Assembly (NCBI GenBank): GCA_034521975.1
Contig: JAXHLR010000004.1
Span: forward strand, 62,001-126,000
Origin: Acidimicrobiales bacterium
GTDB lineage: Bacteria; Actinomycetota; Acidimicrobiia; Acidimicrobiales; SKKL01
Direction of reading: 5' to 3'
Length of the DNA stretch: 64,000 nucleotides
In this document: one piece after another, positions 40,705 through 53,569 of the stretch
Layout of the letters: each line of letters opens with the position of its first letter
Numbering within the stretch: the first letter of the stretch is position 1
Notes under the pieces: model-generated
Told to the model about the DNA's origin: nothing
Seen by the model: only the letters and a program-made list of their open reading frames with translations
Database searches by the model: none
Made by a program: the position numbers and the translations under genes

Positions 40705-41319
40705 TCAGGCGGGGGCGAGGGCGGACCGCAAGAAGGCCAGCAGCTCGCGGCGACGAACGACCATCGCCCGCAGCGAGGGATCGACACCCAGCGCCCGTTG
40801 CACCTCGACCTCGGTGGCCACGCCGATCACCGTCGAGTAGGCCGACAGCAGCACCAGCCGCGGGTCGGTCGTGCGCATGGTGCCGGCGCCCATCTCGGCC
40901 TCGAGGAACTCCCGGGCCCGCTGCACCAGCGGGTCGAGGGCCTCGGTGAGGCGAACCGACCACGGCGGGCCCAATCGGCTGACCTCCCGCAGCAGGCCGA
41001 GCAGGGCCGGACGCCGAAGGGCGATGCGAAACACCGCCCGCACCACGGACTCGACCCGGTTCCACCCCGGCCCCGCCCGCGACAGCGCCGACTCGAGTGC
41101 ACCGGACAGCTCGGCGGCCGAGCGGTCGATGACCGCCTCGAGGAGCACCTCCTTGGATGGGTACCAGTACAGGATGGTCTGCTTGCGGATCCCCAGCTCG
41201 GTGGCGAGCGCGTCGAGTGAGGTAGCGTCATAGCCGCGTGTCCCGAACGACTGCGCGGCAGCGTCGAGGACCCGGTCGGCGGTGCGCACGGGGCCCGACG
41301 ATAGCGGGCTCTCTACCAT
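40705..41319 (-). CDS. TetR-family transcriptional regulator
   Basis: The 204-residue regulator has an N-terminal helix-turn-helix (TSLDALATELGIRKQTILYWYPSKEVL) and a helical ligand domain. It is divergent from the SDR-HAD gene with only 18 bases between start codons. A perfect inverted repeat overlies its own ATG, so it should repress both itself and the plus-strand operon 41338-47411. The ligand is unknown; an acyl-CoA or hydroxy-acid derivative would fit the operon content. Confidence 0.9.
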   Translation of the reverse strand: MVESPLSSGPVRTADRVLDAAAQSFGTRGYDATSLDALATELGIRKQTILYWYPSKEVLLEAVIDRSAAELSGALESALSRAGPGWNRVESVVRAVFRIALRRPALLGLLREVSRLGPPWSVRLTEALDPLVQRAREFLEAEMGAGTMRTTDPRLVLLSAYSTVIGVATEVEVQRALGVDPSLRAMVVRRRELLAFLRSALAPA

Positions 41320-41327
41320 CTGGTAGA
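41312..41327. promoter_or_regulatory. Probable TetR operator
   Basis: TCTACCA-TC-TGGTAGA is a perfect 7+2+7 inverted repeat. It covers the TetR start codon (41319-41317) and ends ten bases before the GTG of the divergent operon, so bound regulator would block both transcripts. TAGACAATAGG next to it (41324-41334) contains a possible -10 (TAGACAAT region) for a nearly leaderless plus-strand mRNA. Confidence 0.75.
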
Positions 41328-41337
41328 CAATAGGGCT

Positions 41338-43659
41338 GTGATCGCCGACCAGCTCACCGGGCGCCGCATCGCCGTCACCGGCTCCACCGGATTCCTCGGC
41401 ACCGCCCTGGTCGAACGCCTCCTGCGATCGGTGCCCGGGTGCGAGCTCGTGCTGTTGCTGCGCCCCGGCCGCATGCGCACCGTCGAGCAGCGGGCGCAGC
41501 GGGAGATCTTCAAGAACGACGCCTTCGACCGGCTTCGAGGCGACCTCGGCCCCGCCGGCTTCGACGAGATGATCGGGTCCCGGGTGACGGTGATCCGCGG
41601 CGACGTCGGCACCGACGGGCTCGGACTCGACGACGACGGTCGCGCGACCCTGGCCAGCTGCGACATCGTCATCCACTCGGCGGCAACCGTCGCCTTCGAC
41701 TCCCCGCTCGACGGCGCGGTCGAGGTGAACCTGCTCGGCCCCACCCGCATCGCCGAGACCCTGCACGATCTCGGCGTCGCCCCCCACATGGTGACGGTCT
41801 CCACCTGCTATGTGGCGGGCAACCACCGGGGCGACGCCCACGAGGTTCCGGTCGAGGAGTCGCCGTTCTTCGTCGACATCCCCTGGCGGCGCGAGGTCGA
41901 CGCCGCCCGCCGCAACCGCTCCGACCTCGAGGCGCGGAGCCGGCGCCCCGACCGCCTGGCCCGCTTCCACGACGATGCGCGCGGCGAGCTCGGTGCGGCC
42001 GGCATCCCGCTCCTGTCGGCCAAAGCCGAGCAGTACCGCACCCGCTGGGTCACCGACCAGATGGTCGACGCCGGCCGCTCCCGTGCCCGGTCGTTGGGGT
42101 TCCCCGACGTCTACTCCTACACCAAGGCGTTGGGAGAACGTGCCCTCGCCGAGTCCAAGGGCGACGTACCGGTCACGGTGGTGCGCCCGTCGATCATCGA
42201 GTCAGCACTGGCCGAGCCCACTCCCGGGTGGATCCGGGGGTTCCGCATGGCCGAGCCGGTCATCATCTCCTACGCGCGGGGACTGCTCACCCAGTTCCCC
42301 GGTGTGCCCGAGGGCATCGTCGACGTGATCCCCGTCGACCTGGTGGTGGCGGCCATCATCAGCTGCGCCGCCCAGCCCCCCGAGTCCACGCCCCCGGTCG
42401 TCCAGGTCGCCTCGGGCTCCACCAACCCGATGCGGTACCGGCGCCTCATCAACCTCATCGAGTCGTACTTCACCGAGCACCCGGTCTATGACACGACCGG
42501 CCAGCCGATCGCGGTGCCCGAGTGGCGGTTCCCGGTCCGTGGCAAGGTCGAATCGCAGCTGGGACGGGCCAAGGTGGTCATCGACAAGGCCGAGCGGGTG
42601 CTCGAGGCCTTCCCGCTCCGCGGCAAGCAGGCAGAGCTGTCGGCCACGCTCGAGTCGCGCAAGGAAGAGGTCGAGCGCGCCTTCACCTATGTCGAGCTCT
42701 ACGGCGCCTACGCCGAGTGCGAGGCCATCTACACCGTCGACGAGCTCCTCTCGATGTGGGAACGACTCGACGACACCGATCGCCGCGAGTTCGCCTTCGA
42801 TCCGCGCATCATCGACTGGGACCACTACGCCACCGACATCCATCTCCCGTCGGTGGTCGAACACGCCCGGGTCAAGACCACCCCGGGCGCCAAGACCGGA
42901 CCCACCCGCACCGACCGGCTCCGCAAGCAGGTTCTGTCGCCCGAGCGGCACATGGCGGCGTTCGACCTCGAGAACACCCTCATCGCCTCCAACGTCGTCA
43001 CCTCCTACGCCTGGCTCGCCTCGCGCCGCCTGCCCAACGAGGACAAGGTGCGCCTCGCCGCCAAGCTGCTCCGCGAGGCGCCGCAGCTGCTGACCCTCGA
43101 CCGCAAGGACCGGACCGACTTCCTGCGCTACTTCTACCGCCGCTACCAGGGAGCCTCCGTGGACCAGATGGCCGAGGACTCCACCGAGCTGCTCAGCGCC
43201 GTCATCTTGGCCAAGTCGTTCCCCGCCGGAATCCGCAGGGTCCGTGAGCACCGTGCGCTCGGACATCGCACGGTGTTGATCACCGGCGCCCTCGACTTCG
43301 TGGTCGAACCGCTGCGCCCCCTGTTCGACGACATCGTCGCCGCCGAGATGACCGTCCGCGACGGCCGCTACACCGGCGAACTGGTCAAGGTGCCGCCCAC
43401 CGGCGAGGCGCGAGCCCAGGCCATGGCCGACTATGCCACCGCCGAGGGACTCGACCTGGCCGATTCGGTCGCCTACGCCGACTCGGCCTCGGATCTGCCC
43501 ATGCTCGAAGCGGTGGGGTTCCCGGTCGCGGTCAACCCCGAGACCCGCCTGGCGTCGCTGGCCCGCAGGCGGGGTTGGCTCGTCGAGCAGTTCCCGAAGG
43601 CCAGCGCGACCGCCCCACTGCTGCCCCTCGCCCCGACCCGAGCGGGGGTGAGACGGTGA
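41338..43659 (+). CDS. Fatty acyl-CoA reductase-like SDR fused to a HAD-family hydrolase
   Basis: A 773-residue fusion. The N-terminal half is an extended SDR of the male-sterility/thioester-reductase type: GSTGFLG at 15-21, HSAATVAFD, Tyr259/Lys263 in YSYTKALGE, and FPGVPEGIVDVIPVD. The second half (from about 538) is a SerB-like HAD domain: FDLENTL at 542-548, TGALDF, and ADSASDLPML. The usual DxDxT is DLENT, with Glu for the second Asp, so phosphatase chemistry may be slowed or altered. Predicted to reduce an acyl thioester and hydrolyse a phosphate, perhaps on one lipid. GTG at 41338 is used. First gene of the TetR-controlled operon. Confidence 0.85.
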   Translation: MIADQLTGRRIAVTGSTGFLGTALVERLLRSVPGCELVLLLRPGRMRTVEQRAQREIFKNDAFDRLRGDLGPAGFDEMIGSRVTVIRGDVGTDGLGLDDDGRATLASCDIVIHSAATVAFDSPLDGAVEVNLLGPTRIAETLHDLGVAPHMVTVSTCYVAGNHRGDAHEVPVEESPFFVDIPWRREVDAARRNRSDLEARSRRPDRLARFHDDARGELGAAGIPLLSAKAEQYRTRWVTDQMVDAGRSRARSLGFPDVYSYTKALGERALAESKGDVPVTVVRPSIIESALAEPTPGWIRGFRMAEPVIISYARGLLTQFPGVPEGIVDVIPVDLVVAAIISCAAQPPESTPPVVQVASGSTNPMRYRRLINLIESYFTEHPVYDTTGQPIAVPEWRFPVRGKVESQLGRAKVVIDKAERVLEAFPLRGKQAELSATLESRKEEVERAFTYVELYGAYAECEAIYTVDELLSMWERLDDTDRREFAFDPRIIDWDHYATDIHLPSVVEHARVKTTPGAKTGPTRTDRLRKQVLSPERHMAAFDLENTLIASNVVTSYAWLASRRLPNEDKVRLAAKLLREAPQLLTLDRKDRTDFLRYFYRRYQGASVDQMAEDSTELLSAVILAKSFPAGIRRVREHRALGHRTVLITGALDFVVEPLRPLFDDIVAAEMTVRDGRYTGELVKVPPTGEARAQAMADYATAEGLDLADSVAYADSASDLPMLEAVGFPVAVNPETRLASLARRRGWLVEQFPKASATAPLLPLAPTRAGVRR

Positions 43660-44852
43660 AGGCCCTGGAGTTCTCCCGCAACCTCCCCCGGTACGCCGCG
43701 GCCCGGGTCGCCGGCTCGATCATCGCCGGCCGTGGGGCGGGGCCCGGACCCCTGTCGTTGGTCGACGTCGATCCCCCCGGGCTCCCTGGACCGGACTGGG
43801 TCCGGGTGCGCCCCCGCCTGGCCGGCATCTGCGGCTCGGACCTGGCCACGATCGACGGGCGCAGCTCGGCCTACTTCGAGCCGATCGTATCGTTCCCGTT
43901 CGTGCCAGGACACGAGGTCGTCGGCGATCTGGACGACGGCACGCGCGTGGTGATCGAACCGGTGCTCGGCTGTGTCACCCGTGGCATCGAGCCGCCGTGC
44001 GATGCCTGCTCCCGTGGCGACCTCGGCAACTGCGAACGCATCAATCACGGACGGATCGAGCCGGGACTGCAATCGGGCTTCTGCTGCGACACCGGCGGTG
44101 GTTGGTCGACCCTCATGGTTGCCCACCGGTCGCAGCTGCACCCGATCCCCGACGAGCTCGACGACGACGCCGCGGTGCTGGTCGAACCAACGGCCTGCGC
44201 TGTCCACGCGGCCCTCCGGGGTGCGGTGGCGGCAGGCGACACCGTGGCGGTGCTCGGCGCCGGCACCCTCGGCCTGCTCACCGTTGCGGCGCTGCGACGC
44301 CACACCGATGCAGGCACCATCATCGTGGCTGCCCGCTATCCCGATCAGGCGAACCTCGCCCGGCTCCTCGGCGCCGACGTGGTCGTGGGCTCCGACGAGT
44401 GGCGGCGCGCGGTGCGCCGCGTCACCGGCAGCCACGCCGTGGGCGACGGCTCGATCGACCGGCTCACCGGCGGCGCGCACGCCGTGTTCGACTGCGTCGG
44501 ATCGAGCCACAGTCTCACCGAGAGCCTGGCGGTGGTCCGGCCCCGTGGCCGCGTGGTGATGGTGGGGATGCCCGGTGCGGTCACCGTCGACCTCACCGGC
44601 CTGTGGCACCGCGAGATCGAACTCGTCGGCGCCTACGCCTACGGCACCGAGCTCACCGCCGACGGCCCCCGCCGCACCTTCGACCTCGCCTTCGAACTGG
44701 TGCGCCACGCCGACCTCGGCCGACTGGTGTCGGCCACCTACCCCCTCGCTCGCTACCGCGACGCCATCGAGCACGCGGCCAACGCCGGGCCCCGAGGTGC
44801 CGCGAAGGTCGCCTTCGACCTGCGCGACGAAAAGGAGCGCAACCGCCTATGA
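43656..44852 (+). CDS. Zinc-dependent alcohol dehydrogenase
   Basis: A 398-residue medium-chain dehydrogenase. The catalytic zinc site is GICGSD and GHEVVGD, the structural zinc site has four Cys (GC at the end of VLGC, then CDAC and GNC), and the nucleotide loop is VLGAGTLGLL. It oxidises or reduces an alcohol/aldehyde with NAD(P). The first 40 residues, before the catalytic Cys, are longer than usual. The GTG overlaps the previous stop by four bases, and its stop overlaps the DUF2088 start. It could process the aldehyde or alcohol formed by the reductase encoded before it. Confidence 0.92.
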   Translation: MKALEFSRNLPRYAAARVAGSIIAGRGAGPGPLSLVDVDPPGLPGPDWVRVRPRLAGICGSDLATIDGRSSAYFEPIVSFPFVPGHEVVGDLDDGTRVVIEPVLGCVTRGIEPPCDACSRGDLGNCERINHGRIEPGLQSGFCCDTGGGWSTLMVAHRSQLHPIPDELDDDAAVLVEPTACAVHAALRGAVAAGDTVAVLGAGTLGLLTVAALRRHTDAGTIIVAARYPDQANLARLLGADVVVGSDEWRRAVRRVTGSHAVGDGSIDRLTGGAHAVFDCVGSSHSLTESLAVVRPRGRVVMVGMPGAVTVDLTGLWHREIELVGAYAYGTELTADGPRRTFDLAFELVRHADLGRLVSATYPLARYRDAIEHAANAGPRGAAKVAFDLRDEKERNRL

Positions 44853-46456
44853 CCCGCCGCAGCCCACGCCCGGGCTTCGTCCTCGACGTCGACCGTTCGA
44901 CCCCGCCCATCGTGTTCCATCACGGCGAGGGCTTCCGGCTCGAGAAGCTGCCCCCTGGCCGGTCCCGGGTCGTCTACCCGGCCGAGCCACTGCGCGGGCT
45001 CGACGATCCCGAGGCCGCCATCCGCCACGCGCTGTTGAACCCTCACGGCGAGTCCGAGCCACTGCCGGCCCTGCTGTTTCCGGGGATGAAGCTCACCATC
45101 GCCTTCGACGACGTCTCCCTGCCGCTGCCGCCCATGCGCCGGCCCGACATCCGCCAGCGGATCATCGAGGCGGTCCTCGACCTGGCGGCCGAGGCCGGGG
45201 TCGACGACGTGCACCTCATCGCCGCGCTCGCCCTGCACCGACGCATGACCGAAGGTGAGCTGCGACACGCCGTGGGCGATCGGGTCTATGACGCCTTCGC
45301 GCCGCGGAACCTGCTCTACAACCACGACGCCGAGGACCCCGACGGCATGGTGATCCTCGGCCAGACCGGCCACGGTGAAGACGTCGAGATGAACCGCCGG
45401 GCCGCCGAGAGCGACCTGGTGGTGTACGTGAACATCAACATCGTGGCCATGGACGGCGGCCACAAGAGCACCGCGACGGGTCTGGCCGGCTACGCGGGTG
45501 TGCGCCCGCACCACAACCCGAAGACCATGACCCAGTCCAAGTCGTTCATGGACCAGACCAGCTCGGAGCTGCACAAGAGCAACTGGCGCCAGGGCGACGT
45601 CATCCGCGACGCCGGGGTCAAGATCTTCCAGATCGAGACCACGATCAACAACAACACCTTCGGCCGCACCGGCCCGATGTCGATGCTGCAGAAGCGCGAG
45701 TGGGAGTGGACGACCCGCGACCGGGCGGCGTTCATCGCCATGCAGAACGGGCTCGGCGTCCTCCCCGCCCGTCGCCGCCGCCAGATCTTCCACTCGTGGG
45801 AGGCGCCCTACGAGATGACCTCGGTGCAGGCGGGCGAGGTCGAGGCGGTCCACCGGGTGACCACCGAGAACGTCTACCGCCAACACCTGGTGCCGGTCGA
45901 GGGCCAGACCGACGTGCTCACCATGGGGCTGCCCTACATCTGCCCCTACAACGTCGACTCGATCATGAACCCCATCCTGGTCATGTGTCTGGGGCTGGGG
46001 TACTTCTTCAACCTCTACAAGGGGCGCCCGCTGGTGCGCGAGGGCGGCGTGTTGATCATGAGCCACCCCACCCCGTGGGAGTTCCACCCGGTCCACCACC
46101 CGAGCTACATCGACTTCTTCGAACAGGTCCTGGCCGACACCACCGATCCGGTGGAGATCGAGGCGAAGTACGAGAAGCAGTACGCCGAGGACGAGTGGTA
46201 CCGCCACCTGTACCGCACCAGCTACGCCTACCACGGCGTGCACCCGTTCTACATGTGGTACTGGGGAGCACACGCGCTCGAGCATCTTGGCCGGGTCATC
46301 ATCGTGGGCGGCGACGTGCGAGCGGTGCGACGCATGGGCTTCAGCTCGGCGTCGACGCTGCAGGACGCGCTCGAGATGGCCACCGACGTGGTCGGCCCCC
46401 GACCCACGATCACCCACTTCCACAACCCACCGATCCTCATGGCCGACGTGACATGA
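44849..46456 (+). CDS. LarA-like DUF2088 protein (nickel-pincer racemase family)
   Basis: The N-terminal third resembles LarA, the lactate racemase with a nickel-pincer nucleotide: AFDDVSLPLPP (86-95), the helix histidine in LALHRRMTEGEL (His130) and the lysine in MDGGHKSTATGLAGY (Lys206) at the place where LarA holds its cofactor by a thioamide bond. The Arg of the LarA D-x2-R motif is Leu here, and the histidine before GG-x-K is absent, so the substrate must differ. At 535 residues it is about 100 longer than LarA, with a unique Trp/His/Tyr-rich C-terminal half. No larB, larC or larE lies in the window. ATG overlaps the previous stop (ATGA), with AAAGGAG 12 bases upstream. Confidence 0.8.
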   Translation: MTRRSPRPGFVLDVDRSTPPIVFHHGEGFRLEKLPPGRSRVVYPAEPLRGLDDPEAAIRHALLNPHGESEPLPALLFPGMKLTIAFDDVSLPLPPMRRPDIRQRIIEAVLDLAAEAGVDDVHLIAALALHRRMTEGELRHAVGDRVYDAFAPRNLLYNHDAEDPDGMVILGQTGHGEDVEMNRRAAESDLVVYVNINIVAMDGGHKSTATGLAGYAGVRPHHNPKTMTQSKSFMDQTSSELHKSNWRQGDVIRDAGVKIFQIETTINNNTFGRTGPMSMLQKREWEWTTRDRAAFIAMQNGLGVLPARRRRQIFHSWEAPYEMTSVQAGEVEAVHRVTTENVYRQHLVPVEGQTDVLTMGLPYICPYNVDSIMNPILVMCLGLGYFFNLYKGRPLVREGGVLIMSHPTPWEFHPVHHPSYIDFFEQVLADTTDPVEIEAKYEKQYAEDEWYRHLYRTSYAYHGVHPFYMWYWGAHALEHLGRVIIVGGDVRAVRRMGFSSASTLQDALEMATDVVGPRPTITHFHNPPILMADVT

Positions 46457-46487
46457 GCCCGGCGGCATCGACCCGGGGGGCTCGCCG

Positions 46488-47411
46488 ATGAGCGCGAGCG
46501 CACGCACCCTGGCCCGCGTGGTCCGTCGCGTGCCGTTTCCCTATCGCGCCCCCACCACCCCGCGGGGGGTCGAGCCCCCACCCCAGCGTCGACGCACCGG
46601 ATCCGACTTCCCCACCGAGTGGGCCCGCCGGTACCCCGCCCGGCTGACCCGCCTGGCGCTGCTCGAAGCCGTGATGCGCCCGATGATCGCCGGGATGGCC
46701 CCACCCCAGCGGCGGGGCCTCGACCACCTCGACCGTCTCGAGGGACCGCTCATCTTCGCCGCCAACCACCACAGCCACATCGACACGCCGCTCATGCTCA
46801 CCTCGATCCCCGAGCCCTGGCGCCACCGCACGTTCGTCGGCGCGGCGGCCGACTACTTCTTCGGCAACCGGGTGAGCGGCACGTTCTCGGCCCTGGCCCT
46901 GAACGCGGTACCCATCGAACGGACCAGGATCTCCCGCGACAGCGCGGACCGCGCCGCCGCGCTGATCGAGGACGGATGGAGCCTGGTGATCTTCCCCGAG
47001 GGCGGGAGGAGCCCCGACGGCTGGGGCCAGGACTACCGCGGCGGCGCCGCCTACCTGGCCCTGCGCTGTGGCGTGCCGATCGTCCCCGTGCACCTGGCGG
47101 GCACCGGTCGGGTGCTGGCCAAGGGAGACAACCGCCCCACGAGGTCGGCGACGACGGTCACCTTCGGACCGCCCATCGTTCCCACCGACAGCGACGACAC
47201 CCGCAGACTGGCCGCTCGACTCGAACAGGCCGTGGCCGAGCTGGCCGACGAGACCACCACCGACTGGTGGCAGGCGCGGCGCCGGGCCGCCGCCGGCGCC
47301 ACACCGGCGCTCTCCGGCCCCCAGGCCGCAGGATGGCGCCGGGCCTGGGCTCTCGGCGAGCGCGACCCGGATCGCCGACGCACGCGGCGCCGGTGGCCAC
47401 GCTTGGACTGA
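46488..47411 (+). CDS. 1-acylglycerol-3-phosphate acyltransferase family protein
   Basis: A 307-residue PlsC-family enzyme with the H-x4-D motif in ANHHSHIDTPL and phosphate motif FPEGGRSPDG. The N-terminal 60 and C-terminal 50 residues are Arg/Pro-rich extensions. It probably transfers an acyl chain to a glycerolipid or to a product of the operon. It lies 31 bases after the DUF2088 gene and is the last gene before a strong hairpin. The start ATG at 46488 lacks a good ribosome-binding site. Confidence 0.87.
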   Translation: MSASARTLARVVRRVPFPYRAPTTPRGVEPPPQRRRTGSDFPTEWARRYPARLTRLALLEAVMRPMIAGMAPPQRRGLDHLDRLEGPLIFAANHHSHIDTPLMLTSIPEPWRHRTFVGAAADYFFGNRVSGTFSALALNAVPIERTRISRDSADRAAALIEDGWSLVIFPEGGRSPDGWGQDYRGGAAYLALRCGVPIVPVHLAGTGRVLAKGDNRPTRSATTVTFGPPIVPTDSDDTRRLAARLEQAVAELADETTTDWWQARRRAAAGATPALSGPQAAGWRRAWALGERDPDRRRTRRRWPRLD

Positions 47412-47453
47412 CCGCGCTCGAGACGGCCACGCCGCGGAACCTGGCTCGGACGC

Positions 47454-47492
47454 GATCGAGGCGGCTCCCGTGGCGCGGGAACCGCCTCGATC
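47454..47492. terminator. Strong hairpin ending the TetR-controlled operon
   Basis: GATCGAGGCGGCTCCCG and CGGGAACCGCCTCGATC pair over 17 positions with one G-U type mismatch and a five-base loop. It is the strongest stem in the window, centred between the stops of convergent genes (47411 and 47517), so it can terminate both. Confidence 0.82.
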
Positions 47493-47516: not shown

Positions 47517-48659
47517 CTAGTCGACGCACCACACGCCGTCGCGACCGCGCCCGGCGCAGGTGTCGCCGAACTCCTCGTACTCCGAACCGAACTCGGAGCT
47601 GCGGTAGAGCTCGTCGCAGGCCTCGTCGTCACCGGCATCGCAGGCGTCCCACAGGACGTCGAGCTCGGGATTGTCGCCGTAGGTGTCGCCGGGCAGAAGT
47701 CCGAAGTCGCCGCCACCACCGCCGGAGCCCTCATCGAGCTGGGTGGGGTCGATGTCGCACTCTTCGAACAGCTCGAAGGCCATCCCCATCGAGTCGGGGT
47801 CGGTGAAGGAGTCGGGATCGGAGAGCATGTCCTCGAACTGCTCGTCGGAGAACCCTTCGAACATGCCCGTGAGGAAGCACTCGGCCTGGTCGGGGGTGAT
47901 GCCCATCTCGGCGGCCATCTCCGAGGCCATCATCTCCATCATCGCCGGCGGGAACTCCATGTTCCCGCTGCTACCACCGGCGTCCTCGGTGGTGTCGGTG
48001 GTGTCGTCCTCGGTGGTGTCGGTGGTGTCGTCCTCGGTGGTGTCGGTGGTGTCGTCACCCGAGGTCGGGTCGACGTCGCACTCGTCGAAGGCGTCGAAGA
48101 TGACCAGCAGCTGCTCGTCGGTGGGATCGTCACCGCGCTCGATCGCATCGGCGATGTCGGCGATGTCTCCCGAGTCGGTGAGCTCGTCGGCCACGCATCC
48201 GGCCTGGGCGGCGCTGAGCCCCATCTCGGAGCGCAGGCTGGAGATGACCTCGCCACGCAACTCCTCGTCGACGCCGTCATCGTCGGAGAGCACGAGGAAC
48301 CAGACCAGGGCGCCGATGATGAGGGCCAGGATCACGATGCCGCCGATGATCGCCGCCATGTTGCCACCCGAGCCGTTGGGCTGTTCGGGAGGTGGACCGG
48401 CGGGTCCGCCGGGCCCGCCACCACCCGGTGGAGGCGGCGACGGTGATGCCGGCATCGCCGCAGTGGGATCCGACGCGCCGGCCGCGCCCCAACCGGCGGG
48501 CTCGGTTCCAGCCGCGGCTCCACCCGGATCCGCGCTGGGCGGATCGGTGGAGAGCGCCCCGTCGTTGGACACATGATCGGACCACTGGGAACCGTCCCAG
48601 TAGCGGTACTGGTGACGCCCGAAGGGATCGGGCTGCCACGATCCGGACTGTTCGCTCAC
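47517..48659 (-). CDS. DUF2510 membrane protein with duplicated Cys-containing module
   Basis: About 380 residues. The N-terminal DUF2510 module (WQPDPFGRHQYRYWDG, WSDHV) is followed by a Pro/Gly/Ala-rich linker, one membrane segment (IIGGIVILALIIGALVWFLVL) and an acidic outer part. Two similar modules, each with a single inner Cys and ending FDECDVDPT or FEECDIDPT, are separated by three exact repeats of DDTTDTTE. The C-terminus, with LWDACDAGDDEACDELY and GSEYEEFGDTC, is a widespread actinobacterial motif of unknown function. GTG at 48659 has GGAGGG five bases before it. Function unknown; a surface or sensory role is possible. Confidence 0.82.
   Translation of the reverse strand: MSEQSGSWQPDPFGRHQYRYWDGSQWSDHVSNDGALSTDPPSADPGGAAAGTEPAGWGAAGASDPTAAMPASPSPPPPGGGGPGGPAGPPPEQPNGSGGNMAAIIGGIVILALIIGALVWFLVLSDDDGVDEELRGEVISSLRSEMGLSAAQAGCVADELTDSGDIADIADAIERGDDPTDEQLLVIFDAFDECDVDPTSGDDTTDTTEDDTTDTTEDDTTDTTEDAGGSSGNMEFPPAMMEMMASEMAAEMGITPDQAECFLTGMFEGFSDEQFEDMLSDPDSFTDPDSMGMAFELFEECDIDPTQLDEGSGGGGGDFGLLPGDTYGDNPELDVLWDACDAGDDEACDELYRSSEFGSEYEEFGDTCAGRGRDGVWCVD
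47983..48054 (-). repeat. Three exact 24-bp tandem repeats inside the DUF2510 gene
   Basis: The unit tcctcggtggtgtcggtggtgtcg is repeated at 47983, 48007 and 48031 without mismatch and encodes the acidic Thr/Asp linker. Exact identity suggests recent slippage, and copy number may vary between strains. Confidence 0.92.
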
Positions 48660-48937
48660 TCGGACCCTCCACGTCGTTCGGCTGGCTGCGCAGGCTAGCA
48701 CCCCACCACTGTGCGTGACCGGACATCCGAGCCGTGGGAACGTGCTGATTCGGATCGTTGCGGCTCACCCGCTACGATGCTCCAACCCCGGATCGGGGCA
48801 TTGGCAACGGCGCCTCTGCTGACGACGACGTCGGCACTCACGGTTTGCTCGACACAGTGACGTGTCGAGGCTGGCCGCTCCGATCACCGCACCCCGCCCC
48901 GGCGTCACACGAGCCGGTCGACCACCACGAGGTACGG

Positions 48938-53555
<4,618 letters not shown>

Positions 53556-53569
<14 letters not shown>

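Follow-up and report, generated by a model that had tools for sequence, protein, structure and literature searches.

A conserved TetR-associated operon unites a single-histidine LarA homologue with a fatty acyl-CoA reductase in Acidimicrobiales and probably encodes a nickel-pincer-dependent lipid-making module

The window analyzed here is a stretch of 64,000 nucleotides (G000:C4:62001-126000) from the 3.3-Mb genome of an Acidimicrobiales bacterium (G000). On its minus strand lies a gene for a TetR-family regulator (40705-41319; PF00440 at 47.8 bits, over the cut-off), which is divergent from four plus-strand genes encoding a fusion (FAR-HAD, 41338-43659) of a fatty acyl-CoA reductase (FAR, approximately residues 1-520) with an HAD-IB phosphatase-like domain (approximately residues 537-750); a zinc-dependent, polyol/ketose-reductase-like medium-chain dehydrogenase (43656-44852; PF08240 and PF00107); a LarA homologue of the LarAH14/15/16 family with a single catalytic histidine (44849-46456; NF052592 at 893 bits, against a curated cut-off of 740); and a PlsC-type acyltransferase (46488-47411; PF01553 at 63 bits). 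The operator TCTACCA-TC-TGGTAGA, 16 bases with perfect 7-nt arms, occupies positions 41312-41327. Four-base overlaps join FAR-HAD to the dehydrogenase (GTGA at 43656) and the dehydrogenase to the LarA homologue (ATGA at 44849), and a gap of 31 bases precedes PlsC. Further downstream, a plus-strand hairpin (47454-47492; 17-nt arms, 94% complementary) is a putative terminator; it is present in the minimum-energy fold, folds better than most shuffled sequences (z -2.1), and was not among the predictions of a terminator scan. The five genes, both overlaps, the gap, the operator and the hairpin all lie where the initial annotation had placed them, although its wording of a strong terminator was slightly overstated, since the long 3' hairpin has no T-run. 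No RNA element was found near the operon. Outside the unit, its 3' neighbors are a gene for a DUF2510 protein (47517-48701, minus strand) and one that appears to encode the large subunit of glutamate synthase (48758-53569, plus strand).

The first enzyme scored 187.5 bits with PF07993, 97.7 with PF12710 and 111.7 with TIGR01490 (over its cut-off), and PF03015 (FAR C-terminal) stayed below its own cut-off. In the predicted structure (mean pLDDT 89.0), the FAR part, C-terminal part included, was nearest to the rice DPW FAR (7eoz, TM 0.82), and the HAD part to 3fvv (TM 0.83). A Rossmann SDR motif is present, and Y259 and K263 of the YxxxK motif are invariant. The N-terminal part is a full-length fatty acyl-CoA reductase, which shares with the rice DPW-type enzyme the whole FAR fold and YxxxK, and differs from it in carrying a fused HAD-IB domain. 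It had first been taken for an NRPS-type thioester-reductase domain, a reading set aside in view of the DPW fold and of TIGR01746, which gave only a partial match far under its cut-off. FAR enzymes require an acyl thioester as substrate.

In the HAD domain, the motif residues D543, T649, R692 and D715/D719 are kept. At the second Asp position of motif I, 75 of 83 sequences carry Glu; seven have Asp, and all seven come from outside the order. Motif I (window positions 42964-42972, FAR-HAD residues 543-545) reads DxE in nearly all of the order, and an invariant Arg692 occupies the position of the motif III Lys. The HX4D and PEG-R catalytic motifs of PlsC are invariant in 113 sequences. Single stops in the matched frames or frame breaks were seen in FAR-HAD of G499, G515 and G081 and in the dehydrogenase of G446 and G410, and the G518 dehydrogenase is in two pieces; these may be assembly errors, read-through of frame ends, or decaying copies.

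In LarA enzymes, which use two histidines, a hydride passes from the substrate carbon to the nickel-pincer cofactor (NPN) and back. The two-domain LarA fold of the homologue was borne out by its model (pLDDT 94.4; nearest PDB entry 9q3k, TM 0.85, approximately 24% identity), with 19 PDB matches at E<=0.001, of which 18 belong to the LarA family and the remaining one is the Thermotoga maritima protein 4nar. Its closest named relatives are mostly from Acidimicrobiales (at most 84% identity, full length), and a plasmid search for such relatives returned distant LarA only. The residues H130, N197, K206 and H222 are conserved in 127-128 of 129 LarAH sequences. Mapped onto LarA by alignment, K206 would be the NPN-linking Lys184 and H222 the nickel-ligand His200 (both in 128 of 129), and H130 would match the catalytic His108. 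The second catalytic histidine, His174, appears to be replaced by N197 (Asn in 127 of 129) and the phosphate-binding Arg75 by L91, a pattern outside that of the canonical racemases; an invariant R102 could stand in place of Arg75. Ordinary racemization is unlikely because of these two replacements.

The closest fold is that of the single-histidine LarA Bw / LarA Sp subfamily (9q2u, 9q3k, 9q3j; PMC12611868), which likewise has Asn at the His174 position and has no known substrate either. This subfamily carries Lys at the Arg75 position, unlike the Leu91 found here, and its gene context suggests carbohydrate metabolism, whereas that of the present operon points to lipids. The structural study of LarA Sp proposes one-way action on D-substrates (PMC12611868), and Desguin 2020 allows hydride reactions besides racemization (PMC7583248). 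In the sequence family to which our protein belongs (LarAH14/15/16; Desguin 2020; NF052592), the Frankia LarAH14 showed no activity in any of seven assays (PMC7583248); this group is known as one in which no activity was found, and we did not find a tie to FAR-HAD, dehydrogenase, PlsC and larB/C/E described for it. Our literature search found no substrate for LarA superfamily groups 14 and 15, both of which are without one catalytic histidine. A sister LarAH subgroup (approximately 526 bits) with a near-identical active site adjoins a family III CoA-transferase (L133:4792-7702 and L134:6402-9355), and the family is therefore tied to CoA thioesters; here an AMP-binding protein lies nearby and FAR-HAD is replaced. 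A distant relative of LarAH14/15/16 (L136:5606-7075) lacks most residues for catalysis and NPN binding.

Across 148 genomes of the order, LarAH (133 genomes) and FAR-HAD (132) occur together in 130, are both absent from 13, and occur singly in five (three and two), the discordant genomes being mostly incomplete assemblies; the co-occurrence gives a Fisher P of approximately 4e-14 with relatedness ignored. The order TetR< FAR-HAD> (ADH>) LarAH> PlsC> recurs in about 80 loci, nearly all from Acidimicrobiia, and also outside that class in the Actinomycetota; with so many other records sharing it, the arrangement is not due to chance. The initial annotation had made its pathway idea depend on the set being kept together in related genomes, and the set is indeed retained. 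Not every lineage has the TetR gene, however, and many carry the dehydrogenase gene at another place in the genome. The distances computed for the enzymes' protein sequences are correlated (r 0.83-0.91), as vertical descent alone predicts.

The nearest solved relatives of the dehydrogenase are a ketose reductase and xylitol and sorbitol dehydrogenases. An orthologue of at least 51% identity was present in 36 of 37 LarAH-positive genomes, even when unlinked, and in none of 24 LarAH-negative genomes, where the best matches reached 33-41%. The sole LarAH-positive genome without it, G475, has only a LarAH fragment. In operons that do not include the dehydrogenase, the spacing between FAR-HAD and LarAH is 15-220 bases and the orthologue lies elsewhere in the genome. 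This distribution supports the dehydrogenase as a probable obligate partner that is often encoded outside the operon, and it is the strongest evidence for one pathway instead of a mere old neighborhood, because the dehydrogenase tracks the set even when unlinked. Among the conserved neighbors of relocated dehydrogenases, judged from sequence starts, no common lipid or hydroxy-acid genes that might extend the pathway were found.

With regard to regulation, a GTG at 41289 is a possible alternative start of the TetR gene, as the ATG at 41319 falls inside the operator. A divergent TetR homologue was present in 51 of the 77 loci examined, and a YTACCANNTGGTARA-like motif stood 5' of FAR in 49 of these, against none of the 26 loci without the regulator. 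Across these 77 loci the motif paired with the divergent TetR is a TACCANNTGGTA-type site, and the putative target in the present operon is TCTACCANNTGGTAGA. The pairing supports action of TetR through the TACCANNTGGTA operator, and a repressor role would fit both its family and the location of the operator. The regulator most likely acts locally, because the extended operator has a single perfect match in the 3.3-Mb genome, at the site described above. A wider regulon was considered and rejected: no second perfect operator was found genome-wide, and near matches were no commoner than in the reversed control. TetR is absent from some lineages carrying the operon. The proposal of one TetR-controlled functional unit is thus backed by conservation, phylogenetic profiles and the operator/TetR pairing.

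The genes larB, larC and larE are all found in G000, unlinked to the operon, and most simply serve it, since no Lar_N protein other than the operon's LarA homologue exists in this genome. In a sample from the order and the class, the three genes were over cut-off in 19 of 21 LarAH-positive genomes and in none of 17 LarAH-negative ones; in the 148-genome sample, where two of the larC-negative genomes were derived from the totals, larC was present in 121 of 133 LarAH-positive and five of 15 LarAH-negative genomes. Moreover, larE, larB and larC adjoin the PlsC gene of the operon in G290, from another class, and larE and larC lie within a few kilobases of LarAH in G227, G076 and G052. Genome comparison therefore supports larB/C/E as likely members of the module, though unlinked in G000. 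Four genomes point the other way: G264 (L117) and G295 (L118) keep FAR-HAD and a LarAH with an intact active site but none of larB/C/E, and G498 (genus of G264) and G489 (family of G295) keep LarAH and FAR-HAD with no detectable larC. These lineages count against an NPN-dependent module.

The comparisons support FAR-HAD, the dehydrogenase, the LarA homologue, PlsC and larB/C/E as one inherited functional set, and the operon is probably a TetR-controlled, NPN-dependent lipid-making module. We infer each chemical step from the enzyme families. LarAH14 would carry out NPN hydride transfer on a long-chain 2-hydroxy acid, or on the corresponding thioester, at the hydroxyl-bearing carbon, and His130 would be its sole acid/base; FAR would reduce the acyl thioester to the alcohol, yielding either a hydroxylated alcohol or a 1,2-diol; the dehydrogenase would set or interconvert carbinol and ketone; PlsC would acylate the resulting product; and the HAD domain would take off phosphate. 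It is possible, and proposed here tentatively, that this is the first NPN-dependent lipid pathway, in which a single-histidine LarA performs a non-racemizing hydride reaction on long-chain 2-hydroxyacyl compounds and feeds FAR, giving hydroxylated lipids, or lipids of the 1,2-diol type, across much of Acidimicrobiia. The 2-hydroxyacyl-to-diol chemistry specifically is doubtful. Long-chain 1,2-diols occur in some Thermoleophilia, and no report of a lipid of the proposed type in Acidimicrobiia was found in the papers searched.

An ether-lipid pathway would be an unlikely way to place the same enzymes, with FAR supplying the fatty alcohol, PlsC acting in a GNPAT-like manner, the dehydrogenase reducing alkyl-DHAP, the HAD domain serving as phosphatase and LarAH acting, without precedent, at or close to the formation of the ether bond. 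Its appeal comes from the kinship of the dehydrogenase with ketose reductase and polyol dehydrogenases, and from the Myxococcus elb and MXAN_1674-1676 operons, which likewise unite FAR, acyltransferase and HAD parts for lipid synthesis. However, no LarA enzyme is described in those operons, the operon reported here has neither AGPS nor acyl-CoA synthetase, and an enzyme of alpha-hydroxy-acid type is left unaccounted for; to our knowledge, no LarA member takes part in ether-lipid synthesis. Even less probable is a catabolic or storage module making fatty alcohol, wax or neutral lipid from acyl-CoA, in which LarAH and the dehydrogenase would process a hydroxy-acid or polyol by-product. The combination of FAR, acyltransferase and HAD does resemble neutral-lipid gene sets, and an Actinomycetota AGPAT-HAD fusion beside WS/DGAT has been described (PMC10351704), but the operon holds no WS/DGAT gene, and the near-strict co-occurrence of LarAH with FAR-HAD is unexpected for a by-product role.

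The lineages with an intact LarAH but without larB/C/E, together with the replaced Arg75 and His174, would also fit a LarAH14 that has moved past the use of NPN to become a redox-silent binding or scaffold protein, with the larB/C/E association as ancestral inheritance. We regard this as quite improbable: the NPN-linking Lys and nickel-ligand His are kept in all but one of the LarAH sequences, larB/C/E are retained in nearly every sampled genome that has LarAH as its sole or principal LarA protein, and the three genes are physically linked to the operon in other classes.

An NPN-dependent lipid-making module thus remains our preferred reading, and the uncharacterized lipid or hydroxy-acid reaction proposed at the outset is still the best guess, with its LarA-like protein now refined to a LarAH14/15/16 member having a non-canonical active site. 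The LarAH14 group itself was already known; what appears new from these comparisons is the lipid-associated LarAH module, with its obligate partners and its regulator, which we did not find described in the open literature; an earlier mention of the gene neighborhood elsewhere is possible. In brief, the module gives LarAH14/15 a concrete context, namely a lipid pathway, a short list of obligate partners and a local regulator, so that the role of a single-histidine NPN enzyme becomes a testable question, and it points to a lipid not yet described, made by actinobacteria that are seldom cultured.
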